From an uncultured Fibrobacter sp. (lineage in GTDB: Bacteria > Fibrobacterota > Fibrobacteria > Fibrobacterales > Fibrobacteraceae), in contig CAMHDS010000015.1 of the NCBI GenBank assembly GCA_946183925.1, positions 1 through 37,230 on the forward strand: a DNA stretch of 37,230 bases, given 5' to 3'. This document shows, piece by piece, positions 2,022-29,377 of the stretch (position 1 is the stretch's first letter; the number at the start of each line of letters is the position of its first letter). The notes beneath the pieces were generated by a model, which did no database searches, was not told the origin of the DNA, and was given only the letters and a program-made list of their open reading frames with translations. The translations under genes were made by a program, and so were the position numbers.

Positions 2022-2039
2022 TTCTGAAGAAATTAAAAA

Positions 2040-2069
2040 CGCCCCGCTTTTCTAGGCGGGGTGTTTTTT
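2040..2069 (+). terminator. Rho-independent terminator of the alpha operon
   Basis: CGCCCCGC at 2040-2047 pairs with GGCGGGGTG (2055-2063) around a short T-rich loop, with one G-T wobble, and six T bases follow at 2064-2069. It lies 18 bases after the rplQ stop and separates the ribosomal operon from the polysaccharide genes. Confidence 0.9.
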
Positions 2070-2070
2070 G

Positions 2071-2078
2071 TATATTTC
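2071..2078 (+). promoter_or_regulatory. Candidate -10/-7 promoter element for the polysaccharide genes
   Basis: TATATTTC lies directly after the terminator and 36 bases before the ATG of the exporter gene. No convincing -35 box is present. The element resembles similarly placed boxes upstream of other genes in this window, which is the main reason for calling it. Confidence 0.45.
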
Positions 2079-2106
2079 TGAAGAGTTTGAATTTTGGTAA
2101 CACGCT

Positions 2107-3291: not shown

Positions 3292-3294
3292 CCT

Positions 3295-13245: not shown

Positions 13246-13294
13246 TAATTTTGGGTTTGCTTGTTTAAGTTTTTGCAAATAAAAAAGGAACGCT

Positions 13295-14962
13295 ATGCCA
13301 GCTTTTGATCCGAATGCGAAAAAGATGCTGATTTCGGGAAACGAGGCCATCTCGCTTTCCATGCGCCACTGCAACGTGCAGTTTGCCGCAGGTTACCCGG
13401 GTACCCCCTCTACCGAAATCCTCGAGGATTATTCTGAACTCGGCGGGTATGCCCAGTGGGCCCCGAACGAGAAGGTCGCCGCCGAAGTGGCCCTGGGTGC
13501 AGCTTTTGGCCATGCCCGCAGCGTGGTCACCATGAAGATGGTCGGCCTCAACGTGGCTAGCGACGTGCTCTACACTGCGACCTACACGGGCGTGGACGGT
13601 GCCATGGTGTGGATCGTGGCCGACGACCCGGGCCAGGGCAGTTCCCAGAACGAACAGGACACCCGCAACCATGCGAAGGCATCCGTTTGCCCGATGTTCG
13701 AGCCCTCCAACTCCCAGGAGGCTTACGACTTCTTCCGCATTGCGGTGCAGACGAGCGAAAAGTTCAAGATTCCCGTCATTCTCCGCATGACGACCCGCGT
13801 GGACCACTCCAAGTCCATCGTGGTGCCCAAGGAAGAACTCCCGGCCATGGTGCCGAACTTCGAGCGCAATATCGCCCAGCACGTGATGGTGCCCGGTTTC
13901 TCTAAGCCGGCTGGCCGCAAGCTCCGTGCCAAGATGGACGAGATGGAAGCCTGGAACGTGGCCGAAGGCCCGAACAAGGTGGAAATGCGCAGCGCCGACA
14001 TGGGCATCATCGTGAGCGGCATCAGCTACCACCATGTGCGTGAAGCTGCTCCGGAAGCAAGCATCCTCAAGCTCGGCATGACCTACCCGCTGCCGATGCA
14101 GCTCATCAAGGATTTCGCGAAGAAGTTCGAAGGCAAGCGCCTGCTCGTGATCGAAGAAAACGACCCGTGGCTCGCCGAGAACATCAAGGCCGCGGGCATC
14201 CAGTGCGAAAGCAAGTACGACCCGATTTTCCGCTTCGGCGAACTCGACGTGAACCGCGTGCGCCGCATTATCGCTGGCGACAGGAACCCGGATCCGGTTC
14301 CGGTGAAGGGCAAGCCGCCTATGCTCTGCCCGGGCTGCCCGCACCGCAGCTCTTTCGCGGTTCTCAAGGAACTCGACTGCATCGTCTCTGGCGACATCGG
14401 CTGCTACACGCTCGCCGCTCTCCCGCCCATCAGCGCGATGGACTACATGATTGACATGGGTGCCGCTATCGGTATGGGCATTGGTCTGCGCAACGTGCTT
14501 CCGCGCGAACAGGCCAAGAAGGTCGTCTCCGTGATTGGCGACTCCACGTTTGTCCACAGCGGCATCACGGGCCTCGTGGAAGCGGGCTACAATCGCCCCG
14601 ACACCGGCCATGTGGTCGTCATTCTTGACAACAGCATCACCGCCATGACGGGCCAGCAGGAACACCCGGGTACGGGTCGCCACCTGGACCACAGCCCGGC
14701 CTACAAGCTCGACTACGGTGCCATCGCGAAGACCGCCGGTTTCGACAACGTGTACGAAGTGAACCAGGTCAAGGAACCCGAGAAGTTCAAGGAACTCGTG
14801 AAGGAAGCCCTCGAGAAGGACGAGCTCACGCTCATCGTGGCGAAGAGCCCCTGCATCCTCGCTCTCAAGAGCATCCTCGCCTGGGACAAGGCCAACAAGG
14901 AAAAGGCTGAAAAGGCTCTCGCCGAGTCCGAAGCCGCTGCAAAGAAGAACGGCAACTTTTAA
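13295..14962 (+). CDS. iorA: Indolepyruvate:ferredoxin oxidoreductase, alpha subunit (lacks C-terminal ferredoxin domain)
   Basis: This 555-residue protein is the thiamine-diphosphate subunit that oxidatively decarboxylates aryl-pyruvates, such as indolepyruvate, to acyl-CoA with reduction of ferredoxin. The reaction may also run in reverse for aromatic amino acid synthesis in anaerobes. The pyrimidine-binding domain opens with GNEAISLSMRHCNVQFAAGY and PGTPSTE (35-41). The C-terminal TPP-binding domain has CPGCPHR at 345-351, GDIGC at 366-370 and GDS/DNS motifs around 410-445. The usual C-terminal pair of [4Fe-4S] ferredoxin motifs is absent; the protein ends in a Lys/Ala/Glu-rich helix just before iorB. 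Ribosome binding site AAAGGAA lies at 13285-13290. Confidence 0.92.
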   Translation: MPAFDPNAKKMLISGNEAISLSMRHCNVQFAAGYPGTPSTEILEDYSELGGYAQWAPNEKVAAEVALGAAFGHARSVVTMKMVGLNVASDVLYTATYTGVDGAMVWIVADDPGQGSSQNEQDTRNHAKASVCPMFEPSNSQEAYDFFRIAVQTSEKFKIPVILRMTTRVDHSKSIVVPKEELPAMVPNFERNIAQHVMVPGFSKPAGRKLRAKMDEMEAWNVAEGPNKVEMRSADMGIIVSGISYHHVREAAPEASILKLGMTYPLPMQLIKDFAKKFEGKRLLVIEENDPWLAENIKAAGIQCESKYDPIFRFGELDVNRVRRIIAGDRNPDPVPVKGKPPMLCPGCPHRSSFAVLKELDCIVSGDIGCYTLAALPPISAMDYMIDMGAAIGMGIGLRNVLPREQAKKVVSVIGDSTFVHSGITGLVEAGYNRPDTGHVVVILDNSITAMTGQQEHPGTGRHLDHSPAYKLDYGAIAKTAGFDNVYEVNQVKEPEKFKELVKEALEKDELTLIVAKSPCILALKSILAWDKANKEKAEKALAESEAAAKKNGNF

Positions 14963-14974
14963 GGAGAAGTTTTT

Positions 14975-15448
14975 ATGAGCGTAGTTAACGTGAAATTTGC
15001 CGGCCTCGGTGGCACAGGCGTTATCAAGGCGAGCGACGTGATGGCGGAACTCGTGTTCGAACAGGGCTACGACGTGAAGAAGGCCGAAGTGCACGGCATG
15101 AGCCAGCGCGGCGGTTCTATTGCTTCCGATGTCCGCTTTGCGAAGGGCGAAGAAGTTCAGTCCCCGATGATCCCGACGGGCGAAGCCGACTACCTGGTGG
15201 TATTCGACGAGACGCAGGTCGTGGTGAACGAGGCTTTCCTCAAGCAGGGTGGCGTGCTCCTCACTCCGGCCGACATCGATGTCTCGAAGCTCGAGAACGT
15301 GAAGGCCCTGAACGTCGCGATGCTCGGCAAGCTCAGCAAGCATTTCGACTTCACCGTGGACCAGTGGATGGTCGCTTTGAACAAGCTCTTCGCCGAAAAG
15401 TTCCACGAGGGCAACAAGAAGGCCTTCATGCTCGGCCGCGAAGGGTAA
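14975..15448 (+). CDS. iorB: Indolepyruvate:ferredoxin oxidoreductase, beta subunit
   Basis: This 157-residue subunit has the pyruvate-ferredoxin oxidoreductase gamma-type fold and pairs with IorA. The N-terminus holds the GLGGTGVIKASDVMAE glycine motif (residues 10-25) and the conserved HGMSQRGG segment (about 46-53). It is shorter than the usual length of about 190-200, missing mostly C-terminal sequence. AAGGAG at 14961-14966 gives a strong ribosome binding site, and the gap to iorA is 12 bases. The next gene begins on the base after its stop codon. Confidence 0.9.
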   Translation: MSVVNVKFAGLGGTGVIKASDVMAELVFEQGYDVKKAEVHGMSQRGGSIASDVRFAKGEEVQSPMIPTGEADYLVVFDETQVVVNEAFLKQGGVLLTPADIDVSKLENVKALNVAMLGKLSKHFDFTVDQWMVALNKLFAEKFHEGNKKAFMLGREG

Positions 15449-17524
15449 ATGAAGCTTTTCGCCCCCTTTCAGAAGCTTGTCCTGATATCCCTGGCGGTGT
15501 GGGTGGTCCACATCGTCTTGCGGGTCCTGTTGCTGTTCCGCAGCAACCCCTACGGATTCCCCTTCGTCTCTAAGCCGGACTGGTTTATCTTTCATGCGGT
15601 CTGCATCGACTTCATGTGGATTGTGAACGCCTTGGTGGTGTTTGTCGTCTTGGGAGCGTTGGTCGCACTTCTCGTCTCCAAGATCAAACCGGACTCGAAA
15701 ACCGCAATTGTCCATAAAGTTGCGAAAGTCACCGCTGTTCTTTATGCCGTATTCCACAGTGCAATCTTGCTGCTCACCCTTCTGGACAACGAGACCCAGC
15801 GTTTTTTGGGCGGGCACTTGACCTTCGGGCTGGTGGACACCTACAAGGACACCTCGTCCATCATCGTGTTCTACGATTACGTGGCCAACGACCTGTCGGT
15901 GCCTTACCTGCAGTTCGTGGTGCTCCTGCTGATGTTGCCTGCGGCCTACGGCCTGTACCGCCTGTTCTGCAAGTGGTACCGCCCTCGCGCAAACGCTACC
16001 GATGGTTCCTGCGAAAACCGTTTCTATGTGAAAAAGTCCGTCATCGCCATGCTGGTGTTCTACGTCGCCTCTTACCTGTTCGTTTACTTTATCTGGACAG
16101 GCAACGCCCGCATGACAAAGCTCCGTCCGGTGGTATCGCTGATTTATCGAGACCTGTTCGAATCCAAGACGGTGCAGGGCCTTTCCGAAGCGGACCTTGC
16201 CACCTACCGTATGGCTTATCAGAACCTGTGGCAAAAGGTGGAAGGGGATTCGTCGTGGCAGTTTGTGGATAGCGACGCGGGCAACCACCTGCCCTTTTAC
16301 CGCGTGCCGACCCAATCCCTGCTCCAGAGCGAAAAACTGGCGGCCCAGCGCGAAATGCGGCCCAATTTCATTTTGGTGTTGATGGAATCCCAGCGGGGTT
16401 TCAACACGGGCTATATGAATCCGCAAATCCAGCCGTCGCCTACGCCCTTTATGGATTCCCTGGCGGCACATTCCCATGTGTGGATGCGCATGCACACCAG
16501 CGGCGTTCCCACTACCGGCGGCGTGCTTTCCACCCATATCGGCATTCCGCATCATTCCCGCTTGGCACAGGCCACCGACCTTGCCCATGTGACGCTCCCC
16601 AGCTTTGTCTCCGTATTGACCGAGAACGGTTACAGCACCCACTACATGTCCGCCGCCGATCCCGCCTGGGACAATCTGGGTGTATGGATGTCCAAGTGGT
16701 ACACGCAGCAGCATTACAACCGCGAACGTGAAGACGACTCCACCTTCATGGACAATGCCATCGAATATGTACGCGACACGTTGGCCAAGAGCGGAAAGCC
16801 CTTCTTGGCCACTCTCATGACCCGCTCCAACCATTACCCCTTCAACTTTGCGGCGGGCATGACCGACGAAGAAAAGAACCGCCCTCTGCAGGAACGCATC
16901 AATGTGACCATGGGCTATGCCGACCGACAGCTGGCCCGGTTCATCCACGCGGTAGAAAACGAGGAATGGTACAAGAATACCTACGTGATTGTCATGGCGG
17001 ACCACGGATTCCCTCTGGGAGAAAACGGCGTTTCTACCATGAACGGCGGCGGATTTTCCAATGTGAGCTGGATTCCCTTCATGATTCACGGAAAGGGACT
17101 GGACGCTACCTTAGACACCACTACGGCGGCCCAGATAGATATTGCCCCGACGGTGCTGGAACTTGCCGGGTTTGCGGTGCCCAACATATTTATGGGCCAC
17201 AATTTGCTGAGAGGCGGCACCGTTCATACCATCTCTAGTGATACTGTTCAGGCCAACATTGACGGCACGGTTCAATTGGGACTCTCCCTGGGGGCCTATT
17301 CCGGCTACTCCGCCATCGGTCTCGACGGCTACCGCTTTGTGGCCAAGTACCCCTCCTTCGACGAAACCTACCTCTTTGCCGATGGCGACACCCGCCAAGA
17401 ACATGAACTTCTTGTCGGCAGTTCCGCCCCTTCGGACGGTGTACAAAAAGAGGGCGCCTACCTGAAGGCCTCCCTCGATACTCTGATCAAGATTTCGGAC
17501 TACACCCTTGAAAAGGGACTGTAA
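15449..17524 (+). CDS. LTA synthase / phosphoglycerol transferase family membrane protein (sulfatase fold)
   Basis: This 691-residue protein has five N-terminal membrane helices (about residues 9-28, 47-76, 88-113, 147-170 and 193-216) and a large extracytoplasmic alkaline-phosphatase/sulfatase-type domain (about 305-620). Metal-site residues visible are Glu313 (VLMESQRG) and Asp518-His519 (VMADHGFP). The probable nucleophile is Thr355 or Thr356 in SGVPTTGG. The family transfers phosphoglycerol or similar head groups to glycans or lipids at the cell surface, and the acceptor here is unknown. The ATG directly follows the iorB stop, so the gene is probably transcribed with iorAB. It ends 3 bases from the convergent GH5 gene. 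Confidence 0.85.
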   Translation: MKLFAPFQKLVLISLAVWVVHIVLRVLLLFRSNPYGFPFVSKPDWFIFHAVCIDFMWIVNALVVFVVLGALVALLVSKIKPDSKTAIVHKVAKVTAVLYAVFHSAILLLTLLDNETQRFLGGHLTFGLVDTYKDTSSIIVFYDYVANDLSVPYLQFVVLLLMLPAAYGLYRLFCKWYRPRANATDGSCENRFYVKKSVIAMLVFYVASYLFVYFIWTGNARMTKLRPVVSLIYRDLFESKTVQGLSEADLATYRMAYQNLWQKVEGDSSWQFVDSDAGNHLPFYRVPTQSLLQSEKLAAQREMRPNFILVLMESQRGFNTGYMNPQIQPSPTPFMDSLAAHSHVWMRMHTSGVPTTGGVLSTHIGIPHHSRLAQATDLAHVTLPSFVSVLTENGYSTHYMSAADPAWDNLGVWMSKWYTQQHYNREREDDSTFMDNAIEYVRDTLAKSGKPFLATLMTRSNHYPFNFAAGMTDEEKNRPLQERINVTMGYADRQLARFIHAVENEEWYKNTYVIVMADHGFPLGENGVSTMNGGGFSNVSWIPFMIHGKGLDATLDTTTAAQIDIAPTVLELAGFAVPNIFMGHNLLRGGTVHTISSDTVQANIDGTVQLGLSLGAYSGYSAIGLDGYRFVAKYPSFDETYLFADGDTRQEHELLVGSSAPSDGVQKEGAYLKASLDTLIKISDYTLEKGL

Positions 17525-17527
17525 GGT

Positions 17528-18715
17528 CTAGAGGTATTTTTTCAGGGTTTTGATGATGGTGGGGTACCATTCGCCTTTTTTTGTGGCCCAGTTGTAGTTG
17601 TAGGTATCGAAATCTACACCTGTAAATCCCCAGACATGCCATGTAATGTCTAGCTCGTTGGCCACGCTTATGACCGATTCCAGGTAGGTAGCCCTGTTGG
17701 CCTCATCGGCACCTTCGGCTGCACACTTAGAGGAGGCCCCGAATTCACCCATGTTAAGGGGCATATAGGTTCCGTTTTTACCGGGATAAGCCGCTCTTGC
17801 CATGGCTACATATTTCTTCAAATCCGTAACAATTGCGGTTGTTTTTTTGGTGTTGTTTTCGTCCCATACGGAACCACAAGCCGAATTGTGGCCTTGGTGA
17901 GAATAGTAGAATGGTTCGTAGTAATGGCCAGAAATGATGATGTTGCCGTCGTCTTTAGGTAAATTAAGGTCGCCCATCAGTTCAAATTTTCCGTAGTTTC
18001 CCGGGTTGACCATAATGGTTCTCTTGGGGTTGGACTTGCGGATGATTTCGATGGCCTTGTTGGTAAGTTCCGCCAGTTGCTTGTCGGATTCACCCCTTGA
18101 TTCGTTGAGAACCTCGAATACCAGGGAATCGTTGGAAAAATCCTTGAAGGCCTCGGCAATTTGTTCCCACATGGCATAGAACTTTTCCTTTTGACCATTG
18201 GGGTCGTCGTAGAGTTCGTTGTAATGGTGCATGTTAATGATGGCGGGCATTCCCAGGCTGTTGGCGATTTTCACGTCTTCCCGGACCCCTTCGACACGGG
18301 CCTTCTGGATGGTGTAGGGAGGTTCGTTCAGAGCGGTCTGGTTCCAACGCACGGGGATGCGGATAGACTGGAAACCGGCATCTTTCACGATTTGGAACCA
18401 TTCGTCTTGGATGGGGTGGTTCCAACCGTTATCCAGGCAGTCTCCGCTGGCAATGAGGGTATTGGAGCAGCTGGCATCCCAGGAGTTACCGAAGTTGATG
18501 CCGTGGCCCAGCAATTTGTTCATGCGGATGGCGGGGGCGTAGTCGGCCAGGTTTTCGTCGCTTGTCGAAGAGCTGCTTTCTTCTTCGTCTATATCCTCGG
18601 AAGCCGAAGACACTTCCTCCTCGTTTTTTGCAGAAGCTGGGTCGCTATCTTCGGAGCATGCTGCACCAAAAAGCAGGGAAAAAAGGCAAACGTAAACAAA
18701 AAGTTTCTTTTTCAT
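17528..18715 (-). CDS. GH5 family endoglucanase-type lipoprotein
   Basis: This 395-residue lipoprotein has a signal peptide ending in the lipobox FGAAC (Cys20). An acidic/Ser-rich linker (residues 21-58) and a complete GH5 barrel follow. Visible motifs are GINFGNSWD (72-80), IRIPVRW with Arg119, MHHYNE (162-167), the acid/base Glu205 in EVLNES, HYYEPF (264-269) and the nucleophile Glu324 in NMGEFGA. Family enzymes cleave beta-1,4-glucans such as cellulose, and some act on mannan or xyloglucan, so the substrate here is inferred. No carbohydrate-binding module or T9SS-like tail is present. The cysteine is followed by Asp at +4, as in the other lipoproteins of the window. It is divergent from the surface operon. 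Confidence 0.9.
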   Translation of the reverse strand: MKKKLFVYVCLFSLLFGAACSEDSDPASAKNEEEVSSASEDIDEEESSSSTSDENLADYAPAIRMNKLLGHGINFGNSWDASCSNTLIASGDCLDNGWNHPIQDEWFQIVKDAGFQSIRIPVRWNQTALNEPPYTIQKARVEGVREDVKIANSLGMPAIINMHHYNELYDDPNGQKEKFYAMWEQIAEAFKDFSNDSLVFEVLNESRGESDKQLAELTNKAIEIIRKSNPKRTIMVNPGNYGKFELMGDLNLPKDDGNIIISGHYYEPFYYSHQGHNSACGSVWDENNTKKTTAIVTDLKKYVAMARAAYPGKNGTYMPLNMGEFGASSKCAAEGADEANRATYLESVISVANELDITWHVWGFTGVDFDTYNYNWATKKGEWYPTIIKTLKKYL

Positions 18716-18892: not shown

Positions 18893-19633
18893 ATGAAAAA
18901 ATCAAGATTTGCTTCGATAGTTAAGTGTACTTTGTGTATGCTGTTGGCGGTGTCTGCGGCAAACGCCATCTCTTTCAGTGAATACCGTGATAGAGATGCT
19001 GGCAGGTTTGTCCTTAAAGACCCCAAACCTTTTAGACCGGATAAGGATGTGGTGACAGTAGTCATGCGCGAGGCCATTCCTCGTGGTGGTGGATACACCT
19101 ACCAGTATCCTCGTGAAAACCCCGAACCGGTTCTAACAGATAAGTATGCCATGGAAGGCGCTCTTTCTATGGAAATTGAGTTGATTGCAAGCGACTACTC
19201 TGGTGTAGCCATCTGTATCGCCGGCTCCGTGGACCTGACTCCGTATTTGGAAGAGGGCGTTCTGGAATTTTGGATTAAGGGCGAAAAGGGTGGTGAAAAC
19301 GCTCTGTTTGTGCTGGTAGACGATGGTGTCAAGAGCAATGGCGAATCCCTCCAGGTCAAGCTCCGTTCCAAGAGTTTTGGCGAAATCACCACGGAATGGA
19401 AACATTTCAGCATCCCACTAAAGCTTTTTGGCATGACCGGTCTTTACTGGGATGCCAAGAATACCCGCGATGTGATGCTCCCCTTTGCCTGGGACAAATT
19501 CAAGGGCTTCCGTCTAGAGGTTCGTAAAGATGAGAATGAGTCTTTCAAAGTATGGATGGATGATATTGTGATTCGTAAACATGGCAAGCCGTACGAAGGT
19601 CCGGCCTATTATCCGTTCCGCAACGAGATATAA
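18893..19633 (+). CDS. Secreted beta-rich protein, possible carbohydrate-binding module (CBM11-like)
   Basis: The product is 246 residues. A signal peptide (MKKSRF..., cleavage near AANA at about residues 23-26) precedes one domain of about 200 residues. Its predicted beta strands include GVLEFWIKGEKGGENALFVLVDD and FKGFRLEVRKDENESFKVWM, written here as broken pieces of the chain: GVLEFWIKGEKGG, ENALFVLVDD, FKGFRLEVRK. This layout resembles galactose-binding-like jelly rolls such as CBM11, in which a strand carrying FWIKG is typical. I see no catalytic motif and no lipobox. The ATG at 18893 is preferred over ATG 18875 because it gives a normal signal peptide, although GGAG at 18877-18880 is then 12 bases away. 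It is the first gene of the operon, and the next gene starts 9 bases later. CBM identity is inference. Confidence 0.7.
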   Translation: MKKSRFASIVKCTLCMLLAVSAANAISFSEYRDRDAGRFVLKDPKPFRPDKDVVTVVMREAIPRGGGYTYQYPRENPEPVLTDKYAMEGALSMEIELIASDYSGVAICIAGSVDLTPYLEEGVLEFWIKGEKGGENALFVLVDDGVKSNGESLQVKLRSKSFGEITTEWKHFSIPLKLFGMTGLYWDAKNTRDVMLPFAWDKFKGFRLEVRKDENESFKVWMDDIVIRKHGKPYEGPAYYPFRNEI

Positions 19634-19642
19634 GAGGATTTT

Positions 19643-21889
19643 ATGCAGAAGAAACTATTGATACCCTTATTTATTGCGGCGACAACCTCTTTTGCGGCAA
19701 CCTCCGCTGAACAGCTTGATTCCATACAGGCCCATCTAGACACGCTGAGCAACAACATGGAATCTACTCTTCTGGGGAAAGATGACGCTCCCTTGGCGGT
19801 TTCCGGTTATATGGCGTTCCGTGTAAAGAATTTTGATTATACGGATGTTGCTCCCGTTTATGAAGCCGATGCGGCGAGAACATCGGTTGATGCAACCCTC
19901 CGCATGAACATGGTGTTGATGCCCAACTCCTACATGACGTTGTGGACCAACCTGACCTTCCCGTTCGACCTTTCGGGTTTTTACTCCAACGCATTCTCTG
20001 ACCATCCGTCCCGTAGCCCGGGTTACAAGTGGCAGCGTACACCCTTTGACCACAATACCGACTACGTGGGCGCCTCCATTGACGAAGAAATGAACGTAGG
20101 TGTAGATATTCGTTCTTCTGTCTTTGGTGCTTACATTACGGCTGGTGGCGTCATTTGGGCAAACGCTTCTCCCTTGACCATGTGGGAACGTGAGACTATG
20201 CCCCGCTTTGCTTGGCAGTACGAGACCTTCGAAGAAGAAAAGACGGTTAGTACGTATTACAAAGAGAAGTCTTTCAAACCCGTCAAAGAAGGGGGTCGAG
20301 CTTTCTGGACCAACCGTTCTTTCGGTGGTGTGTTCATGAATGTCTACAACATGCCCTTTGGCCTCACGGCTCAGGCAATGATCTCTCAACCCAAGGACAT
20401 GGACGCCGGTACCCGCGATGGTATCCGCCTTTACGGTGGTCAGCCGGGTGAGCAGGAAATGAGCGGTGACTACGATTTCCGCGGTGATGTTTACCACGGC
20501 CGTATTGCCAAGAACAAACTGCTTGGTACAATGACCCTGGGCGCTAACTATATGGGTGTGTTCTATGATAAGGGCCTGGTTGATGAGTACGAGTTTACCG
20601 GGCCTTGGAGAAATGGAAAGGTGGGTAACCCTCATTTCGAAAACAACCAGGTTGTTTCTATGGATGTCAAGGGTAATGTCCTTCCGAAACTCTATGTCAT
20701 GGCTGATGTGGGTGTGAGCTGGGATGATTCTACTACCTTCTATAACGTTGGAAACGATGTGAAGAAAAATTATAGTCGTGATTCCATTTCGAATGAAAAA
20801 TCTGACCCTTCTATTGGTGTGTATGTCAAGATGCAGGACAAACATTTGGAATGGTTGCCTACTACGGTTGAAATGGTCTATTTCAGCGAGAACTTCTTCT
20901 CTCCCTATGGCATGACGGATCCTTCCCGTTTCCGCAGCTGGCGTAAGGATGAGTTCTACCTGGGAGCAGGCGCCATGCGCTATGGGGCCAATATGGCAGG
21001 TGTCAACCTCAAGTTTGAACCGGAATTCAACCGCGGTCGTTTGGGCCTCCAGTATGCCCAGCATCGTCAGATTAAAGAAGGCAATGACGTGTTGCTGTTC
21101 AACTACCGCTTGAATGGTCGTAACATGTGGGAAAGCTCTAATTCTTGGACCAAGTTTAATGCCTACTTCTGGGCGGACTCCGGAAATAGTGTCGCGAGCA
21201 CCTACAAGAATCGTGCAGGTGTAATGACCAATATAACTGAGACCGAAAAGATGGGTCGTCAGCGTGGCGGTCTTTATGGTGGCACCTGGGAACTCTGGGA
21301 ATCTTTCGTGGCCTACGAAAATGCAGACCAGATTAAGGAAGAAAAGATTCCGCAGCATACCAAGTGGGCCTCTTACCTGGCCATTGATGGTGGTTACGAT
21401 ATCGGACACTGGCTCCATACAGACAAGAACGTGATGATGAGCGGTTATGCGGCTCTGTCGGGTATTTCTACTACCTTTGCTCCTGTAGCCTACAGTGAAG
21501 AACAATCCGACATGTTGTTGTGGAGCTTCTATGGCTTGTTCGAACCTACGGTGGGTCTGTTCCCCAGGTTCCATGTGGTGGGCCACCTCGGATTTGAAAA
21601 CTGGAAATCTGAATACGGCTATAGGGTGTCGGATGAATCTATAATCCGTTCTGGAAAGATTCAATCCACCTCTGATTATAGCACCCTTGTTCCTGAGTCT
21701 TACACATATTACGAACAGGCTCCCGTCGATTACTACCAGACCGCTCTCGGTATTGGCTTTGATTGGGACTTCGCCGACCGTGCTGGGTTGCATTTCCGCT
21801 ACAAGTGGGTAACGCATACGGATAATTATGTTTCAGAAAATGATTGGACTGGCCACTACATTACGGCCGAAACCAAGGTTTGGTTCTAG
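19643..21889 (+). CDS. Large outer-membrane beta-barrel protein (surface operon, first paralogue)
   Basis: The product is 748 residues. A signal peptide (about 1-19, IAATTSFA) is followed by a short helical stretch with heptad spacing (QLDSIQAHLDTLSNNM, 24-39). The rest is Tyr/Trp/Phe-rich sequence with many alternating strands and Asp/Asn/Gly-rich turns. The last residue is Phe after AETKVW, the aromatic end that signals beta-barrel assembly. There is no TonB box, plug domain or known porin signature that I recognise. The short helix and entry strand (LAVSGYMAFRVKN) echo the next two proteins, but similarity elsewhere is weak. AGAGG precedes the start and the upstream gene ends 9 bases before. 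Function is unknown; an outer-membrane channel or adhesin scaffold is inferred from context. Confidence 0.75.
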   Translation: MQKKLLIPLFIAATTSFAATSAEQLDSIQAHLDTLSNNMESTLLGKDDAPLAVSGYMAFRVKNFDYTDVAPVYEADAARTSVDATLRMNMVLMPNSYMTLWTNLTFPFDLSGFYSNAFSDHPSRSPGYKWQRTPFDHNTDYVGASIDEEMNVGVDIRSSVFGAYITAGGVIWANASPLTMWERETMPRFAWQYETFEEEKTVSTYYKEKSFKPVKEGGRAFWTNRSFGGVFMNVYNMPFGLTAQAMISQPKDMDAGTRDGIRLYGGQPGEQEMSGDYDFRGDVYHGRIAKNKLLGTMTLGANYMGVFYDKGLVDEYEFTGPWRNGKVGNPHFENNQVVSMDVKGNVLPKLYVMADVGVSWDDSTTFYNVGNDVKKNYSRDSISNEKSDPSIGVYVKMQDKHLEWLPTTVEMVYFSENFFSPYGMTDPSRFRSWRKDEFYLGAGAMRYGANMAGVNLKFEPEFNRGRLGLQYAQHRQIKEGNDVLLFNYRLNGRNMWESSNSWTKFNAYFWADSGNSVASTYKNRAGVMTNITETEKMGRQRGGLYGGTWELWESFVAYENADQIKEEKIPQHTKWASYLAIDGGYDIGHWLHTDKNVMMSGYAALSGISTTFAPVAYSEEQSDMLLWSFYGLFEPTVGLFPRFHVVGHLGFENWKSEYGYRVSDESIIRSGKIQSTSDYSTLVPESYTYYEQAPVDYYQTALGIGFDWDFADRAGLHFRYKWVTHTDNYVSENDWTGHYITAETKVWF

Positions 21890-21908
21890 TAGGGGGTGAG
21901 GTAAGATT

Positions 21909-24140
21909 ATGATTTATAAAACGCTATTATCCCTGCTTGTAGTTGCTTCCACTGCTTTTGCTACAACGGAAATTCAGAACAAGAATGCTCTGACCGCCAA
22001 GCAGGATTCCCTTGAATCCAAGCGAGGCTTGACGATTGACGGAAGCGTCAAGGGCGTGTTGGTCAATTCCTATATGGAATCGGACCAGGAAGAGGAAACT
22101 TCTATCAACAGGATGCCCAATGATGAGCGCTCCCAGTTTGTGTCTGCGGACATCGGTTTCCATTTCCGCCCCTACGAAAGCGTCCGTGCGAATTTGCTAT
22201 TGCGCTTGGAAGCGGGCATGCAGAACTACTTTGCCTCTTCGGCCAAGGAAATATCAGTTCCCTGGTTGAATGTAGAAGGCAATGTTACCAAGGATTTTTA
22301 CTGGGTGGTGGGTGATTTCCGCCAGCAGTACAGCCCCCTTACTCTTTACGCTCCTACGGGCGTCGGCAACTTGCTCTACGAACCCCTGATTTTCTCTCGT
22401 CAGAGAGAAATGGCCCAGAAGGAGGCTTTGATTGAAGGTAACCAGCGCAATCTTCAGGGTGTGAACCTGCAGTACCGCCACAATTTCAACGATGCCGTTG
22501 GTGAGCTGCGTGCAGACGCTATGTTTGCCCGCCTCCGCCGTGTGCAGGTGTTGGATTTCTCCGGTGCAAACGGCAACCTGTTGCCCAACGGCGATGTTCC
22601 GGGTGCCTATCAGTCCGCCAACATGGACAAGTGGTTGGTGGCCGGTAACTTGGAATTGCTGCCCCTGAGCAAGAATGTGTACGTGGGTGCTACGGGCATG
22701 TACGTGTTCGATGACAGCACTTCGTTTACCAGGACATACCGCCATGCCAATATGAAGGGTACGGACATGTCTTCCACTAATTTCACGCTGGATGACTATG
22801 AGGAATCCATAATCAATCCCTACGATGTGGATCCTCAGCAGACAATCGTGGCTAGCGGCCGTGTAGGTGCCGATGTGGCTGGCATCCTCAAGAGCAAGGA
22901 CCTGAAATTGGATGTGGTCTTTGAAGGTGCCATGTCCAACGACAAGGTCTATACCCATGTGATGATAGACGATACAACCGAAACGGTTACAGACGAAAAG
23001 GAAAAGGGGCTTGCGTTCATGGGAACTTTGAATGCAGGCTACAAGCTTTCAATGGGGCTTAGCTTTGACCTGTCGGTCAACGGTGTCATGAATGACAGTG
23101 CCTGGTTCAACAACCTGGCTCAGTCTCCCCAGTTCTTTGCTTCTCGCATTCTCAATATCGACAAGGATGACCAGGTAATCCGCTACGGCGTAAACGCTCC
23201 GCTGTACTCCACCTTTGGCGCCTTGTACTACTTTGATCCCAAGTTCTCTCCGGCTCCGGACCCGAGAAAGTATAATCCTACTTTCATGATGGCCACCACG
23301 GATGACCCCACCTTGGCTGCCCAGAACCCGAGCTATAACCTGGCTCCCTTCGCTAAGAATTCCTGGAGCAATAGGGTCTATACCCGTAGCGAACTCAACC
23401 TGATTTCGGCCCTCACGGACCCGGCTCTCCAGCTTGCCATGCCCAACGGCTACGCCACGGCTAACCGCAAGGGTGGAGACGTGGATTTCAAGGTGGGCTT
23501 CAAGAACTTTGTGGAATTGAACGCCATTGCGTCCATGTACAAGCAGGTCAAGGCCGATATTGGCTTTAAGGAAGCGGAATACATGGAATATGGTGGTGGT
23601 CTTAAGTTTGACGTGTTCAAGATGTTGGGTTTCGACAGGCCCCTGGAGCTCTCCGGTAGCTATAAGCATTCCAGCAAGAAGCAGAGTCTGGACGACTCCT
23701 TTGCCGGTCAGTTCGCTTCTCTAGAGGGTGAACTCAAGCTGGATTACATTTCCGGCGGCCTGTATTTCCAGTATCTGCCCCGTTTGGGACTCGCTGGTGG
23801 AATCCAGATGATCGATATGGAACTGAACGAGGTGGCGTCCGTTACCAAGTCGAGCCCGTTTGCCGGTTATGTAACCCCGCTTATCAAGGGTAAGCAGATG
23901 CAGTGGATGGCCGGTCTGGACTACACCATTGCCAAGGGCGTTTTCTTTGCGCTGAACTTCGGTATCATTACGGTTGAAAATACCTACAACACCTCTACAG
24001 GGGCAATTGGCGCCAACTTGCCAGACTATGCTGAGGTCAAGACCTACGATGCCGATGGGAACGAGACCGGGTTTGTTCCGGAATTCAAGCATAAGTTCTC
24101 CCAAACCGTTGTTGAAGCACTCTTAAATGTGGATTTCTAA
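21909..24140 (+). CDS. Large outer-membrane beta-barrel protein (surface operon, second paralogue)
   Basis: The product is 743 residues, with a signal peptide ending near AFATTE (about residue 18) and a short polar helical stretch (TAKQDSLESKRG). A long beta-rich chain follows, ending in ALLNVDF with a C-terminal Phe. It is clearly related to the third barrel protein. Shared blocks include GVLxSxxxSDQ near residues 43-55, YSPLTLYAP near 145, and LAMPNGYATANRKGG followed by a matching GLDR/GFDR block in the last third. A GGGGTGAGG-like purine tract precedes the ATG. No enzyme motif is visible. Long soluble loops (for instance DDTTETVTDEKEKG) are probably exposed. Function is unknown. Confidence 0.75.
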   Translation: MIYKTLLSLLVVASTAFATTEIQNKNALTAKQDSLESKRGLTIDGSVKGVLVNSYMESDQEEETSINRMPNDERSQFVSADIGFHFRPYESVRANLLLRLEAGMQNYFASSAKEISVPWLNVEGNVTKDFYWVVGDFRQQYSPLTLYAPTGVGNLLYEPLIFSRQREMAQKEALIEGNQRNLQGVNLQYRHNFNDAVGELRADAMFARLRRVQVLDFSGANGNLLPNGDVPGAYQSANMDKWLVAGNLELLPLSKNVYVGATGMYVFDDSTSFTRTYRHANMKGTDMSSTNFTLDDYEESIINPYDVDPQQTIVASGRVGADVAGILKSKDLKLDVVFEGAMSNDKVYTHVMIDDTTETVTDEKEKGLAFMGTLNAGYKLSMGLSFDLSVNGVMNDSAWFNNLAQSPQFFASRILNIDKDDQVIRYGVNAPLYSTFGALYYFDPKFSPAPDPRKYNPTFMMATTDDPTLAAQNPSYNLAPFAKNSWSNRVYTRSELNLISALTDPALQLAMPNGYATANRKGGDVDFKVGFKNFVELNAIASMYKQVKADIGFKEAEYMEYGGGLKFDVFKMLGFDRPLELSGSYKHSSKKQSLDDSFAGQFASLEGELKLDYISGGLYFQYLPRLGLAGGIQMIDMELNEVASVTKSSPFAGYVTPLIKGKQMQWMAGLDYTIAKGVFFALNFGIITVENTYNTSTGAIGANLPDYAEVKTYDADGNETGFVPEFKHKFSQTVVEALLNVDF

Positions 24141-24155
24141 GGGAGGGGGTAGAAG

Positions 24156-26447
24156 ATGAAAAGAGATTTTATGAATATGTTGTCTAAGCTCTCCATAGCC
24201 CTGTGTGTTTCTGCCGGGTTTGCAATGGCTGAAGATTCTACCGTTGTGGAACGCCAGCAAGGGCTTATAGAAACCCTTGATTCCATGAACGCCTCTGTCA
24301 TGGGGCTCCGTCTTGGCGGTACAGCCAAGGCCGGTGTACTTTCTTCTACGGCAAGTTCTGACCAGCTGGCGAACCAGTCCGACCACCGTGAGACTCAGGC
24401 CTATACCGATGTGAACCTGAAGGTGACGGCCCGCCCCAGTTCCGAGACGGAGGCCCGCGTCGAGGTTCGTTTGCATAGGGACTGGCAAAGCGCCTATGAT
24501 GAATCCTGGAACCCAGTTTTGGGTCACTGGTTCTCTTATGATGGCAAAATCCTGAACAAGCATGTGGATTTCAACTTAGGATACATGCGTGTGGGCTACA
24601 CTCCGCTTACGCTATATGTTCCCCAGACCGAAATTCTCCAGGAACCGGATATCTTTGCCCAGAAGCGCATGGAATCCCTGGCTCTCCGCAATCTGGATAC
24701 CAGCTCCAACCGCCTGATGCAGGGCTTGAACGCAAGGTATAACAGTTTTGCCGTGGGTCCGCTTTCTAACATTTACGCCCAGATTACTGGAGCGAGAATG
24801 CGTGCCGTTGGTAAAAAGGCTGACCAGGTGTTCTTTGATTTCGACTGGTCTGACCGCTACTTTGCAGGTGCAAATGCCGGGGTTGAGGCCTTCGGGTTCA
24901 CCTTGGGCGGCAACTTTGTGACCACCTTTGACAGAGAGAAATCTTCAAAGGCGACAAATGGGGGTAGTGATCTGTACTACGAAGAGAACAAGGTCTACAC
25001 GGGTGTTGTCGGATTTAATTCTAAGGAATTGATCCAGCTTCCGGTCCGTTTTGGGGTGAATGCCGAAATGGGTCGTTCCCACTGGAACTACGAAATGGAC
25101 ACCCATGTGCCTGACACAACCCACTCTTACAGCGTGAATCCGTTCTACGCTCCTCACTTCGACGAAAATGGTGCCGTTTACGAAGAGGTGATGGTAAACG
25201 GAAGAAATGAGGTTCTTCTGGTTTCGGACACCTCCTTCTACGTTGCTGATTCAATGACGGTAGGTAAAAAGTGGAAGCATGAATTCCTGGATAAGAAAAA
25301 GGGAAAGGCTTTGACTGTTACGCCTTTTGTCGAAGGCGAATTGGCAGGTTTTGATTTCAATGTCAGGGGTACGTTCACCAAGAACGATGAGGATTTCTGG
25401 TCCGAGCAGGCAGCTACGCCCAATTATCTCGAGAACAGAGCCATCTTCAATGCTGAAGCCTCCATGACGGGTGTGGATGAATCTGTTCTTGAACATTTCC
25501 GCTCCGGTAACTTGGAAAGCATGTATTTCTCCATCTACAACACCAACGTGTTGCAGCAGCAGAATATCATGAACAAGCGTGATGGCGACCAGTTGGTCGC
25601 TGCCAAGGAATCCAAGTACACCTACGGTCGTCTGTTCAACAACTACAAGCTTGGACATTTCTACAGGAATGCTTACCAGCCTTATACCTACAAACTTATG
25701 GAAATGGCTGCCGTTCGCGAATTTTTGGATCCTTCTGTGAACATGGCTATGCCCATGGGACTTGCTACTCCCGACCGTATGGGATTCTCTGTTAGTGGAG
25801 ATGTCGTCTGGAACGACGCTGTGGCTTTGAACCTGAGGTTTGCCAAGTACAACGAAGACGAAATCGACAATGAATATACCCAGATGGGTGCTGGCTTGAT
25901 GGTGGATGTCGCTCCCATTATCGGCCTTGACCGCCGTATCAAGTTGCAGGGTTCTTTTGAAAAAGGTGAAGAAGATGCATACCTGAAGCGTAAGACATCC
26001 CGGATAGTGGGTGGTGCAACCATCGATATTTGGGGTCCCTTTGCTTTGCTGGGCGGAGTTCAACTCTTGAACAAGGAGTATGGCCGCGGTCTTGAAATGA
26101 GCTCTGTTTCGGAAAGTATGATCTCTGTTTCTCTTGAGGACGACAAGGGCAAGACCGTGAATCGCCCGGGTACGGAGGTAACTACCAATACGATCCGCGT
26201 GAAGGAAATCGAAGAAATGCTTGCTTTGGGTGGTCTGCAAATCAAGATGGGTGCAGGAGCCTTCCTGAACTTGCAGGGCGGTCTGCTGACAAACTCCGTA
26301 ACGTACACTCGGCAGATTTCCACGGAAAAGAGCTATAACGACTTGAACAATGAACCCGTTGTCGAAAAAGACGCCGGCAAGAAAGAGTCCTTCAAGATGG
26401 ATGTCGACAAGATGCTCTTGATGGCCGATGTTACGGTCTTGTTCTAG
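24156..26447 (+). CDS. Large outer-membrane beta-barrel protein (surface operon, third paralogue)
   Basis: The product is 763 residues, with a signal peptide ending near GFAMAEDS (about residue 26) and a short helix (LIETLDSMNASVMG). A long strand-rich domain follows, ending in MLLMADVTVLF. It parallels the second barrel protein at several points: GVLSSTASSDQ, YTPLTLYVP, EPDIFAQKRMESLALRN, MAMPMGLATPDRMG and GLDRRIKLQGS. This shows a tandem duplication followed by divergence. A purine-rich site (GGGAGGGGGTAGAAG) precedes the ATG 15 bases after the previous stop. No TonB-dependent receptor features are seen. A structural or transport role at the outer membrane is inferred only from the barrel features and the neighbours. 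Confidence 0.75.
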   Translation: MKRDFMNMLSKLSIALCVSAGFAMAEDSTVVERQQGLIETLDSMNASVMGLRLGGTAKAGVLSSTASSDQLANQSDHRETQAYTDVNLKVTARPSSETEARVEVRLHRDWQSAYDESWNPVLGHWFSYDGKILNKHVDFNLGYMRVGYTPLTLYVPQTEILQEPDIFAQKRMESLALRNLDTSSNRLMQGLNARYNSFAVGPLSNIYAQITGARMRAVGKKADQVFFDFDWSDRYFAGANAGVEAFGFTLGGNFVTTFDREKSSKATNGGSDLYYEENKVYTGVVGFNSKELIQLPVRFGVNAEMGRSHWNYEMDTHVPDTTHSYSVNPFYAPHFDENGAVYEEVMVNGRNEVLLVSDTSFYVADSMTVGKKWKHEFLDKKKGKALTVTPFVEGELAGFDFNVRGTFTKNDEDFWSEQAATPNYLENRAIFNAEASMTGVDESVLEHFRSGNLESMYFSIYNTNVLQQQNIMNKRDGDQLVAAKESKYTYGRLFNNYKLGHFYRNAYQPYTYKLMEMAAVREFLDPSVNMAMPMGLATPDRMGFSVSGDVVWNDAVALNLRFAKYNEDEIDNEYTQMGAGLMVDVAPIIGLDRRIKLQGSFEKGEEDAYLKRKTSRIVGGATIDIWGPFALLGGVQLLNKEYGRGLEMSSVSESMISVSLEDDKGKTVNRPGTEVTTNTIRVKEIEEMLALGGLQIKMGAGAFLNLQGGLLTNSVTYTRQISTEKSYNDLNNEPVVEKDAGKKESFKMDVDKMLLMADVTVLF

Positions 26448-26460
26448 TGGAGGTTAGGTT

Positions 26461-27087
26461 ATGAAGATGATAAAGTATTTGTTCGCTACACTAGCCGTTG
26501 CCGTAATGGCAGGATGTTCTGCTGACGATATCAGCGGTACCGAGTCGGAAAACTGGCCCTCGGATTTTTCTGCCAAGGAATACGCGGAGGTCAACTTTGA
26601 CCTGGTGAAAGTCCAGATGAAAGACTCCATTGCCGCAAGGAACGCCTTGAAAAATAAGACTCCCGATGACATGGATGCGAAGGAACTCAAGTTGTTTTTC
26701 GACAAAGAGGAATCCGTAAAGAAAATCTTCACCAAGTACCAGGGTTTTGCTGATTCTATCTGGCCCGGCTATGAAAAGCTCCGGGACGGAAAGATTTATG
26801 TGGATTTCCGCACTCCCTTGTACGATTATCACATTTGGGGTAATACGGCCACTAAGGATTTGCAGTACCTGGAATCCTTCAAGCCCAATTACGATGTGAT
26901 AAAGATGCAGTATGTAATGATAGGCAAGATCGAAGGTCGCCCTTATCGCTGGTGCAAAGACAAAGAGTCCAAGACTTTAAAGGCTGAAAATGAAAAACAA
27001 GCCGTTGCGGTTAAATCCAAGTGGGATTTTTCGGCGAATTATTATTGTAAAAACAAGAAAGATGACCAGGTCTATCTGATTCCGTAG
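26461..27087 (+). CDS. Small lipoprotein of unknown function (surface operon)
   Basis: The product is 208 residues with a lipobox VMAGC (Cys19) followed by SADD. The mature part starts as a charged helical region (about residues 38-95, ending KIFTKYQGFADSIWPG). The C-terminal half is more mixed and contains two Cys residues (RWCKDKES and NYYCKNKK) that could form a disulfide. I recognise no family. GGAGG precedes the ATG, and the gene sits 13 bases after the third barrel gene and 8 before the GH18-like gene. It is likely an accessory lipoprotein of the same complex. Confidence 0.8.
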   Translation: MKMIKYLFATLAVAVMAGCSADDISGTESENWPSDFSAKEYAEVNFDLVKVQMKDSIAARNALKNKTPDDMDAKELKLFFDKEESVKKIFTKYQGFADSIWPGYEKLRDGKIYVDFRTPLYDYHIWGNTATKDLQYLESFKPNYDVIKMQYVMIGKIEGRPYRWCKDKESKTLKAENEKQAVAVKSKWDFSANYYCKNKKDDQVYLIP

Positions 27088-27095
27088 GGGTTTAT

Positions 27096-28145
27096 ATGAA
27101 AAGGTTTCAATTAGCGTTAATTCTTAGCCTTGCCGTTGCGGCTATTGCTGCTCCCTTCAAGGTAGTCGGCTATTATCCCTACTGGGCCCAGTATAGCCAG
27201 TTTTATCCCAAGGATGTCCGTTACAACACGGTGACCCATATCCATTACACTTCTCTGGCTCCTTCGGAGGATGGTTCCCTGGCCTACGCCGACGAGAACG
27301 ACTCCCAGAACTTTGAGACCTTGGCAAAGACGGCCAAGGAGAACAACGTGTCCCTGGTGGTTTCCATCGGCGGATTCGAAGCCGAGGGTGTGCTGGCCTC
27401 TATCGGTGGGGACCAGGCGCTGCTTTCCAAGTTCTGCGACAATGCCATGGAGTGGGTGAACAAGTACGGTCTTGCAGGTCTGGAGCTGGATTGGCAGAAC
27501 TTTGAATCGGACAATGCGGACGCTCTCAAGGCCATGGCGAAGGCCCTTAAGGCAAAGCTTGGAAGCAAGAGCCTCTCGGTGATGGCCTATGCAGCCTCGG
27601 CTGAAGCCTATGGCGACGCCTTGGCCTCTGGTGACATAGACTATGTAACCGTTTCCATTGGCGACCAGATGGACGAATCCTCGGAATCCGTAAAGCCCAA
27701 CATGTCCAAGCAGGACATCGAGAATGCGGTAAAGGCCTTCACGGACAAGTCCGTGCCGGCGTCTAAACTGGTGCCCGTGGTTTTGCTCTACGGCAAAACC
27801 TTTGCCAAGGCCAAGGGCCTCGGTACAGCCCACCAGGGTATCGGTAGCGGCAACGAAGGCTACATCGCCTATAAGGAACTGATGGGCAAGTTCGACACTC
27901 CTGACTACAAGGTCTCTTTTGATGAGGCTTCTGCCTCCGAAGTGGCGGTAAGTGAAACGGAAACCATCGTTTTTTCGGGAATTCCGTCCATGAAATCCGC
28001 TGCCAGCTTTGTCAAGGAACAGAATCTTGCGGGTATTGCCGTGTACGACCTGAGCCAGGACCACCATGAACCCATCGTGTCCTTGTTGGTGACCATCGGC
28101 CAGGTTTTGCGCCCCGAAGTGGATTATAAGCCGAAAAAAAGGTGA
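27096..28145 (+). CDS. Secreted GH18-fold protein with degenerate active site (probable glycan-binding pseudoenzyme)
   Basis: The product is 349 residues with a signal peptide (1-19, ending AAIAA) and a single GH18-type barrel. Recognisable family features are KVVGYYPYW at the first strand (22-30), VVSIGGF (88-94) and the end-strand GIAVYDLSQD near residue 315. At the catalytic strand, where active enzymes have DGxDxDxE, this protein reads A127-G-L-E130-L-D132-W-Q134. The catalytic Glu is Gln and the first two Asp are Ala and Glu. Chitinase-like lectins with similar losses bind glycans without cleaving them. It is the last gene of the six-gene operon, 8 bases after the lipoprotein gene. No lipobox and no T9SS-like tail are seen, and no clear terminator follows. 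Confidence 0.85.
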   Translation: MKRFQLALILSLAVAAIAAPFKVVGYYPYWAQYSQFYPKDVRYNTVTHIHYTSLAPSEDGSLAYADENDSQNFETLAKTAKENNVSLVVSIGGFEAEGVLASIGGDQALLSKFCDNAMEWVNKYGLAGLELDWQNFESDNADALKAMAKALKAKLGSKSLSVMAYAASAEAYGDALASGDIDYVTVSIGDQMDESSESVKPNMSKQDIENAVKAFTDKSVPASKLVPVVLLYGKTFAKAKGLGTAHQGIGSGNEGYIAYKELMGKFDTPDYKVSFDEASASEVAVSETETIVFSGIPSMKSAASFVKEQNLAGIAVYDLSQDHHEPIVSLLVTIGQVLRPEVDYKPKKR

Positions 28146-28273: not shown

Positions 28274-29320
28274 ATGAAAAAGATCATTACAGCTATTGCA
28301 GCGGGTTCCCTTGCAGTTGCCGCTAATGCGGAAAACAAAGTGGTGAACCCGAACCTGTGGTTCAGCGGAACGGAAGAACAAATCGACACTGGTGGAGATT
28401 TTGTCAACGTTTACGGTGCAACCGAGGCTGAGTCCAAGAAGGGCTCTACCATGGGCTTCTGGTTCGACTACGACGATGCTAACGATCATGGTGGTTCCTA
28501 CATTGGCTTCCCGTTCGAAGAGGATACTTACCACAGCCTTTTCAACCCCATGACCCAGCAGTTGGGATACATTTCTGTGCAGTACAACCTGAAGGATCCT
28601 ACCCTTACTGGTCAGTCTGGCGATTTGTACAACTTCGTCGGTCTCGGTTTCAACCTGGTTAACGCCGACAAGGACTGGATGGACATCAGCTCCATTGGTG
28701 GCCTTTGCGTTACTTACACCAGCGACGACCCCGTGTTGGTTGAAATTGCCTCCCCCGAGGTTCCCGATGCCAAGGCTTGCGGTTCTGCGCTTCTGGCTCA
28801 GAGCAGCCCGGCCACCCCGGCAACGGTTTTATGGTCTTCTTTTGAACAGCCGTCTTGGGTGGCCCAAGCCGAAAAGATTGATTGCTCCATTGCTATTGCG
28901 AAGGCCTCTCAGGTCAAGTTCAAGGTCGACGGCGGTGCTGCCGACATGACCGGTAAGCTTCGTATTTTCGAAGTCGGTCCGCAAGGAACTTGCTCGGGCA
29001 ACAAGTCCGTGAGCTCCAACGAACCCACTTCCTTCGCTTACGGTGATTCCCCGAACCTCCCCGGTGGCGGCACCACTCCTGGCGCCATCAAGGCTGCTAA
29101 GGCTCCCGCTTCTGTGAAGGCTGTTCTTTCTGGCCGTACCCTCTCCTTCAACGGCATTACCTCTGGTGCCACTTACGAAATCGTGAGCCTCCAGGGTCAG
29201 GTCGTGAAGAGCGGTGTTGTTGCCTCTTCCGTGAGCCTCTCCAGCCTCAACGCTGGTATCTACATGGTTCGCGTCTCCGGCAAGTCCGTGAACATGAACC
29301 AGAAGATTATCCTCAAGTAA
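28274..29320 (+). CDS. Secreted beta-rich protein with T9SS-like C-terminal sorting domain
   Basis: The product is 348 residues with a signal peptide (1-19, AVAANA). A beta-sandwich-like region of about 230 residues follows (WFSGTEEQIDTGGDFVNVYG near the start, then GGSYIGFPFE and ISSIGGLCVTYTSDD). It ends with cysteines that could pair (KACGS, KIDCS, GTCSG). A Pro/Gly/Thr linker (about 260-272) leads to a tail of about 75 residues with YEIVSLQGQVVKSG and LNAGIYMVRVSG, ending KIILK. This is the pattern of type A T9SS sorting domains. No catalytic motif is seen. The first domain looks like a carbohydrate-binding module, which is inference. It is separated from the operon by 128 bases and followed by a strong terminator. 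Confidence 0.75.
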   Translation: MKKIITAIAAGSLAVAANAENKVVNPNLWFSGTEEQIDTGGDFVNVYGATEAESKKGSTMGFWFDYDDANDHGGSYIGFPFEEDTYHSLFNPMTQQLGYISVQYNLKDPTLTGQSGDLYNFVGLGFNLVNADKDWMDISSIGGLCVTYTSDDPVLVEIASPEVPDAKACGSALLAQSSPATPATVLWSSFEQPSWVAQAEKIDCSIAIAKASQVKFKVDGGAADMTGKLRIFEVGPQGTCSGNKSVSSNEPTSFAYGDSPNLPGGGTTPGAIKAAKAPASVKAVLSGRTLSFNGITSGATYEIVSLQGQVVKSGVVASSVSLSSLNAGIYMVRVSGKSVNMNQKIILK

Positions 29321-29340: not shown

Positions 29341-29377
29341 AAAAAAAGATTCCAAGGTTACCTTGGAATCTTTTTTT
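29341..29377. terminator. Rho-independent terminator (symmetrical)
   Basis: AAAAAAAGATTCCAAGG (29341-29357) pairs perfectly over 17 bp with the sequence at 29361-29377 around loop TTA. The A and T runs on either side allow termination in both directions. Confidence 0.92.

Follow-up and report, generated by a model that had tools for sequence, protein, structure and literature searches.

The window, a 37,230-nucleotide stretch of DNA from an uncultured Fibrobacter sp., contains six genes on one strand (18893–28145) that are separated by gaps of 9, 19, 15, 13, and 8 nt. Such a series, with gaps of 8–19 bases, an export signal on every product, and a divergent GH5 gene, had been described in an earlier note on this DNA, and all of these features are present: the open reading frames occupy the interval, the N-termini of all six products are of the export-signal type, and a GH5-type gene lies next to the series on the opposite strand. 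The features of the locus are:

17528–18715, − strand: GH5-type gene, divergent from the operon; 395 aa, with the lipobox AACS
18893–19633, + strand: gene 1; 246 aa, CBM30-only exported protein
19643–21889, + strand: gene 2; 748 aa, outer-membrane beta-barrel, family A
21909–24140, + strand: gene 3; 743 aa, outer-membrane beta-barrel, family B
24156–26447, + strand: gene 4; 763 aa, outer-membrane beta-barrel, paralogue of gene 3
26461–27087, + strand: gene 5; 208 aa, fast-evolving lipoprotein with conserved Cys residues
27096–28145, + strand: gene 6; 349 aa, exported GH18 pseudoenzyme
28274–29320, + strand: gene 7; 348 aa, exported protein with a T9SS sorting domain (TIGR04183, 6.7e-08)
29341–29377, + strand: best terminator-like hairpin, 3′ of gene 7; 17 pairs, then a T run

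Gene 5 carries the lipobox VMAGC. A C-terminal Phe is typical of outer-membrane barrels, and all three barrels of the series end in one (KVWF, NVDF, and TVLF). The short conserved gaps, in conjunction with the conserved order, point to a putative single transcript of six genes. Gene 7, which starts 128 nt 3′ of gene 6 and occurs in only some lineages, may belong to the same transcript, for a total of seven genes, because no terminator-like site is found on the + strand between genes 6 and 7; the terminator-like sites of the region are, in total, no more numerous than in shuffles.

The T9SS C-terminal sorting domain (TIGR04183/PF18962) is found on the products at 28274, 30943, and 33090 and is absent from those of genes 1–6. 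Profile searches returned nothing above cut-off for genes 1–6 in NCBIfam or for genes 2–5 in Pfam. Elsewhere in the window, a 1274-aa open frame on the − strand (13265–17089) runs antisense to 2-oxoacid oxidoreductase-like and sulfatase-like genes and most likely reflects codon bias.

Conservation in Fibrobacteraceae and the probable counterpart in S85

Of 80 named Fibrobacteraceae loci, which include those of F. intestinalis ATCC 43854 and Candidatus Fibrimonas termitidis, 68 have the order CBM30–barrel–barrel–barrel–lipoprotein–GH18 without variation. The remaining 12 are accounted for by contig ends, a broken contig (L148), and a locus in which genes 2 and 3 share a single frame (L106). Loci around the GH18 gene (gene 6) have the same six-gene order wherever the contig is long enough, and gene 6 itself is present in all but two sampled Fibrobacteraceae genomes. 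Median gaps at the first three junctions are 9, 15, and 15 nt across loci. The earlier note had proposed a search for conserved co-occurrence of the six genes in related genomes, and the synteny found is near-perfect; because the order recurs in so many of the named loci, the arrangement is not due to chance. The best 80 of 101 genome matches all come from Fibrobacterota.

In most named Fibrobacter loci, the neighbour on the divergent side is a GH5 gene, which is not found in that place in the termite-gut (Fibrimonas) loci; the downstream hydrolases are not constant neighbours across the named loci. Within Fibrobacteraceae, the operon does not adjoin an ABC importer or a GH94 gene; homologues of the importer genes sit at other loci in the window's genome.

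The window operon is very probably the counterpart of Fisuc_1525–1530 of Fibrobacter succinogenes S85. Fisuc_1525 (FSU_2007) encodes a 29-kDa protein with a signal peptide and CBM30 only, Fisuc_1530 (FSU_2012) encodes the cellulose-binding GH18 protein CBP-9, and the assignment is made because the numbering leaves exactly four genes between them, which matches the spacing in the window. By the same numbering, the divergent GH5-type gene matches Fisuc_1523 (FSU_2005), a GH5 cellulase of 42 kDa (PMC4619616, PMC6851124). S85 lies outside the named loci, and the identification is based on CAZy type, gene numbering, and protein size. The S85 CBM30 and GH18 proteins have been published as envelope or cellulose-binding proteins (PMC3079729, PMC4619616, PMC6851124), and the suggestion of the earlier note that the whole is a candidate for an undescribed system is therefore not supported. 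The S85 genes that lie between these two, presumably for the barrels and the lipoprotein, find no mention in the literature searched.

Published work on S85 also describes the conditions under which these proteins occur. The CBM30 protein, termed a cellulose-binding domain protein, is found together with Cel51A and SBP5 in the envelope on all substrates, including glucose and cellulose (PMC4619616). The genes for the GH18 protein Fisuc_1530, Cel51A, GH94, and the GH5 protein Fisuc_1224 have high, stable expression (PMC6204037). Adhesion to cellulose is required by F. succinogenes (PMC4619616), and the operon could accordingly be read as an adhesion complex in which the barrels merely anchor the CBM30, lipoprotein, and GH18 binders for attachment to cellulose, with no passage of sugar. 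The reports of the S85 CBM30 protein and CBP-9 as cellulose-binding and envelope proteins agree with this reading, as does the predicted lack of a working catalytic site in any member of the operon in Fibrobacteraceae.

Barrels and binding proteins

The three barrels belong to two families. Genes 3 and 4 are homologous over their full length (hhalign probability 100, E 9e-77), and gene 2, whose product is referred to here as barrel 2, has no detectable relation to either beyond the general fold. No plug or TonB-receptor match is found in any of the three at E up to 10, and this absence is meaningful because plug-bearing TonB receptors elsewhere in the genus are detected by the same model. AF2 models of genes 2 and 3, built on 33-sequence alignments from the window and named loci, depict barrels without a plug (pLDDT 68 and pTM 0.71 for gene 2; pLDDT 73 and pTM 0.74 for gene 3, which has an additional N-terminal helix), with moderate confidence overall and low confidence in the loops. 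The earlier description of three barrels without TonB-receptor features is thus upheld by profiles for all three and also by models for genes 2 and 3, and identity with a TonB-dependent receptor or SusC is rejected since neither profile nor model has a plug. A match of the barrels to a known unrelated family, which had been named as a refutation, did not appear: no family matches by sequence, and a sequence search of solved structures returned no barrel relative. A Pfam match of barrel 2 to DUF3187 was also set aside, as it is below cut-off and spans 39 residues.

In fold comparison, Z values are much alike for ushers, OprD-type porins, AlgE, and TonB receptors and reach 16, with rmsd of 4–5 Å and 5–13% identity. 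Foldseek and VIA likewise recover nothing more specific than a barrel fold, none of the families being outstanding, and maltoporin and chitoporin types are among the Foldseek matches. Because the models resemble many unrelated barrels, they are uninformative on direction. Ranked by Z, pilus ushers come first (9fxs_D; Z 16.0 / 16.2, rmsd 4.1 / 4.7 Å over 346 / 345 residues), which would suit a secretion or assembly platform whose barrels would serve to export cellulases, or Cel51A, or to display them at the surface; in other families, a Cel51A-type enzyme is itself encoded inside the operon. Such a platform is nevertheless improbable, as many other barrels score nearly the same Z as the ushers, identity is 7–12%, no chaperone or pilin-like partner genes are seen, and a secretion route is already present because nearby enzymes carry T9SS signals.

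Variants of the barrels occur among the loci. In several Fibrobacter loci (e.g., L038:9380–11935), barrel 2 has an N-terminal extension of ~100 residues, rich in Pro, Glu, and Ala, that could span the periplasm and is absent in the window. Barrels 2 and 3 share one open frame in L106 (9638–14542) and in G086:C15 (1638 aa in G086), which is either a real fusion or the result of a stop lost in assembly.

CBM30 is a family of beta-glucan-binding modules. Gene 1 matches the CBM30 profile at 1.2e-17 (64.8 bits, with a cut-off of 27) and the solved CBM30 structures 1wmx and 2c24 at 2e-10. Judged by aligned columns, the CBM30 protein is the most constrained member of the operon because its mean column identity is the highest, at 64%, with 51, 50, and 45% for the barrels of genes 2–4, 19% for gene 5, and 55% for gene 6. 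The invariant residues of gene 5 are the lipobox Cys19, G155, G159, Y162, C165, and C196. Two candidate identities for gene 5 were rejected: it has no match to SusD, and its NCBIfam match to Mfa1 fimbriae (E 1.4e-4) is far below cut-off and covers residues 2–85, which are mostly the lipoprotein N-terminus.

Gene 6 matches the GH18 profile at 3.8e-34 over the full domain, and solved GH18 enzymes are also matched. Active GH18 enzymes contain the motif DGxDxDWE or DxxDxDxE with the catalytic Glu; the corresponding motif of gene 6 is LAGLELDWQ, and the replaced Glu confirms the dead GH18 protein of the earlier note. Across 110 distinct relatives, the catalytic position is Gln in 77, another residue in 32, and Glu in a single distant sequence (L070), and it is replaced in all Fibrobacteraceae gene 6 sequences. 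The motif is also intact in the GH18 protein of L165, which belongs to the same family as L070 (f3). Since Glu is replaced in Fibrobacteraceae and intact in these two f3 members, the predicted loss of GH18 activity is tied to the Fibrobacteraceae form of the operon. For FSU_2012, a supposed chitinase, the operon suggests a non-catalytic binding protein.

This bears on a role in the turnover of cell wall (peptidoglycan or chitin), for which the GH18 protein would be a working endo-N-acetylglucosaminidase, as has been suggested for FSU_2012 (PMC6851124). The family match of gene 6 agrees with such a role, and endo-N-acetylglucosaminidase activity in S85 fell together with the GH18 protein. However, a catalytic Glu that is replaced in 109 of the 110 sequences and kept only in L070 makes wall turnover highly improbable, and a second, distant GH18, present in most clean genomes, could account for the activity.

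The phylum-wide core and a candidate route for glucan uptake

Homologues of barrel 2 extend well beyond Fibrobacteraceae and are found by profile search in 130 of 151 Fibrobacterota genomes, representing 31 of 41 genera. In a set of 41 genomes, the CBM30 protein and barrel 2 are in perfect agreement, with both present in 32 and neither in 9 (Fisher 2.9e-9, the genomes not being independent). In families more distant than f1–f3, the operon consists of barrel 2, a gene-3-type barrel, and then the CBM30 protein. In most of these families, CBM30 is the N-terminal part of a Cel51A-type endoglucanase of ~1060 residues, often with a lipobox, which also comprises CBM11 and a GH51-like end (motifs EIGNE and LTEWN). 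Over 1037 aa, 45% of its residues are identical to those of the Cel51A-like protein encoded elsewhere in the window's genome. As the CBM30 proteins of families f7 and f14 (635–654 residues) are without the catalytic part, the constant feature of the core CBM30 protein, as read from its domains, is binding and not catalysis. The Cel51A-like gene of the window's genome (L183:6680–9865) encodes a 1061-aa CBM30-CBM11 protein of the kind found as third operon gene in other families, and it lies apart from the barrels; a search for barrels near Fibrobacter Cel51A found none.

At many distant loci, genes for SBP_bac_5, two permeases, and two oligopeptide-type ATPases lie upstream of or divergent from the operon, and GH94 lies downstream. 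The full series, SBP5-permease-permease-ATPase-ATPase-barrel-barrel-CBM30/CBM11 protein-GH94, is seen in L151. Among 14 other-family genomes, nine have an SBP_bac_5 gene within 10 kb of barrel 2 (0.26 expected, P 4e-13), and at least six have a GH94 gene within that distance (0.22 expected, P 3e-8); these P values ignore relatedness, and the linked genomes span several families. In three distant genomes (L155, L156, and L159), a GT35 carbohydrate phosphorylase adjoins the barrel operon. Family f3 has a different type of carbohydrate ABC importer upstream (SBP_bac_1, MalK-like ATPase, and permease), and in L070 and L165 of this family, a second paralogous copy (CBM30 and barrels 2–4) adjoins a GH18 gene with an intact DGIDxDWE and a GH20 gene. 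The f3 CBM30 proteins at L070:7930–8835 and L165:8003–8971 have ELPTKTVIGK and RLPDRAVTGQ, respectively, after the signal peptide, resembling the starts of TonB-dependent receptors.

It is moderately probable that the products of the operon form an outer-membrane complex, by which beta-1,4-glucan chains or oligosaccharides are captured at the cell surface and delivered to the periplasm. The CBM30 protein, or Cel51A elsewhere, would hold a glucan chain next to barrel 2, and one or more of the plug-less barrels would conduct glucan chains or oligosaccharides into the periplasm. An Opp/Dpp-type (SBP5) ABC importer would then move oligosaccharides from the periplasm to the cytoplasm, where they would undergo phosphorolysis by GH94. 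The lipoprotein and the GH18 pseudoenzyme may have been added in Fibrobacteraceae as further surface or periplasmic binding parts, and the paralogous copy of family f3 may have turned to chitin, with chitin oligosaccharides probably its substrate. In F. succinogenes, the mechanism of cellodextrin transport is stated as unknown, the ABC genes FSU_1687–1688 are proposed cellodextrin importers, and no MalA-like outer-membrane protein was found (PMC6851124).

The six-gene set is a strong candidate for the entry of cellulose fragments through the outer membrane because its order is kept in nearly all Fibrobacteraceae genomes and because, in other parts of the phylum, its core has genes for sugar import and sugar cleavage as neighbours. 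In Fibrobacteraceae, where the ABC importer and GH94 are not its neighbours, the function is carried over from the distant families. Adhesion without transport is the main and a serious rival, secretion and wall turnover being weaker, yet we regard it as unlikely. The ABC importers and phosphorylases that neighbour the barrel/CBM30 core in other families are expected if it serves uptake and not if it serves adhesion, and an anchor needs no two conserved families of ~750-residue barrels in 31 genera. Against uptake, three barrels per complex exceed the needs of an uptake pore, and more of the S85 GH18 protein is present in the extracellular medium than in the outer membrane (PMC4668043), with a decrease on cellulose (PMC6851124).

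A bolder form of the uptake proposal, offered tentatively and with less than even expectation, is a phylum-wide, plug-free import machine of two new barrel families and the CBM30 protein; it would thread entire beta-1,4-glucan chains, or long oligosaccharides, into the periplasm, would have a chitin-directed paralogue, and would be built from parts unrelated to SusCD or known sugar porins. Fibrobacter is one of the chief cellulose degraders of the herbivore gut, and the operon provides specific, conserved outer-membrane candidates that are linked to an inner-membrane importer and a phosphorylase. If the uptake proposal is true, glycan uptake by this route does not depend on SusCD, and the operon is a concrete target for understanding how insoluble cellulose feeds the cell.

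Relation to known glycan capture systems

The earlier note had proposed a glycan-binding surface complex with a role like that of SusC/D and built from different parts. Gene order, CBM30 content, and the linkage to ABC importers and GH94 elsewhere favour this proposal, whereas we infer the existence of one complex, transport beyond binding, its direction, its substrate, and the membrane face of each part. Outer-membrane glycan capture loci are not new as a kind, SusCD and the cellulose PUL of Cytophaga hutchinsonii (PMC12016534) being earlier examples, and it is the parts that differ. The operon is SusCD-like in its predicted role and is not filed as a SusCD member because two defining SusCD features, SusD and the plug, were searched for and are absent; genes 1–6 have no SusD match at E up to 10. 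A search of 25 other Fibrobacteraceae genomes found no SusD_RagB either. One contig of the window's assembly (G000:C62, L186, ~1897–6506) carries SusC-like (1098 aa) and SusD-like (435 aa) genes; it was rejected as a Fibrobacter system and is probably a contaminant because SusD occurs in no other sampled Fibrobacteraceae genome, its G+C of 0.53 not being telling.

Like SusC/SusD of Bacteroidota, the operon combines one or more barrels with putative surface glycan binders beside glycoside hydrolases, in a presumed process of glycan capture and import. In contrast to SusC/SusD, the Fibrobacter barrels have no plug, there is no SusD-family lipoprotein, CBM30 stands in the place of SusD, two unrelated barrel families occur in tandem, and an ABC importer and GH94 are neighbours in other families. 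The cellulose PUL of C. hutchinsonii (chu_1276–chu_1280) is similar in that CHU_1279 is also a CBM-like cellulose-binding protein (PMC12016534). Cel51A, the endoglucanase F of F. succinogenes (Fisuc_3111; CBM30-CBM30-CBM11-GH51), shares its architecture with the CBM30-bearing operon protein of most other families; in Fibrobacteraceae, by contrast, Cel51A is not beside the barrels, and a CBM30-only protein is kept in the operon.

The TonB-free sugar porins maltoporin and chitoporin, which work with periplasmic binding proteins, likewise place a plug-less barrel in the path of oligosaccharides. They differ from the Fibrobacter barrels in size (~430 residues as compared with ~700), share no sequence similarity with them, and contrast with an operon that has two to three barrels together with dedicated binders. 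The Opp/Dpp-type cello-oligosaccharide ABC importers and GH94 are direct neighbours of the core in other families and occupy separate loci in the window's genome.
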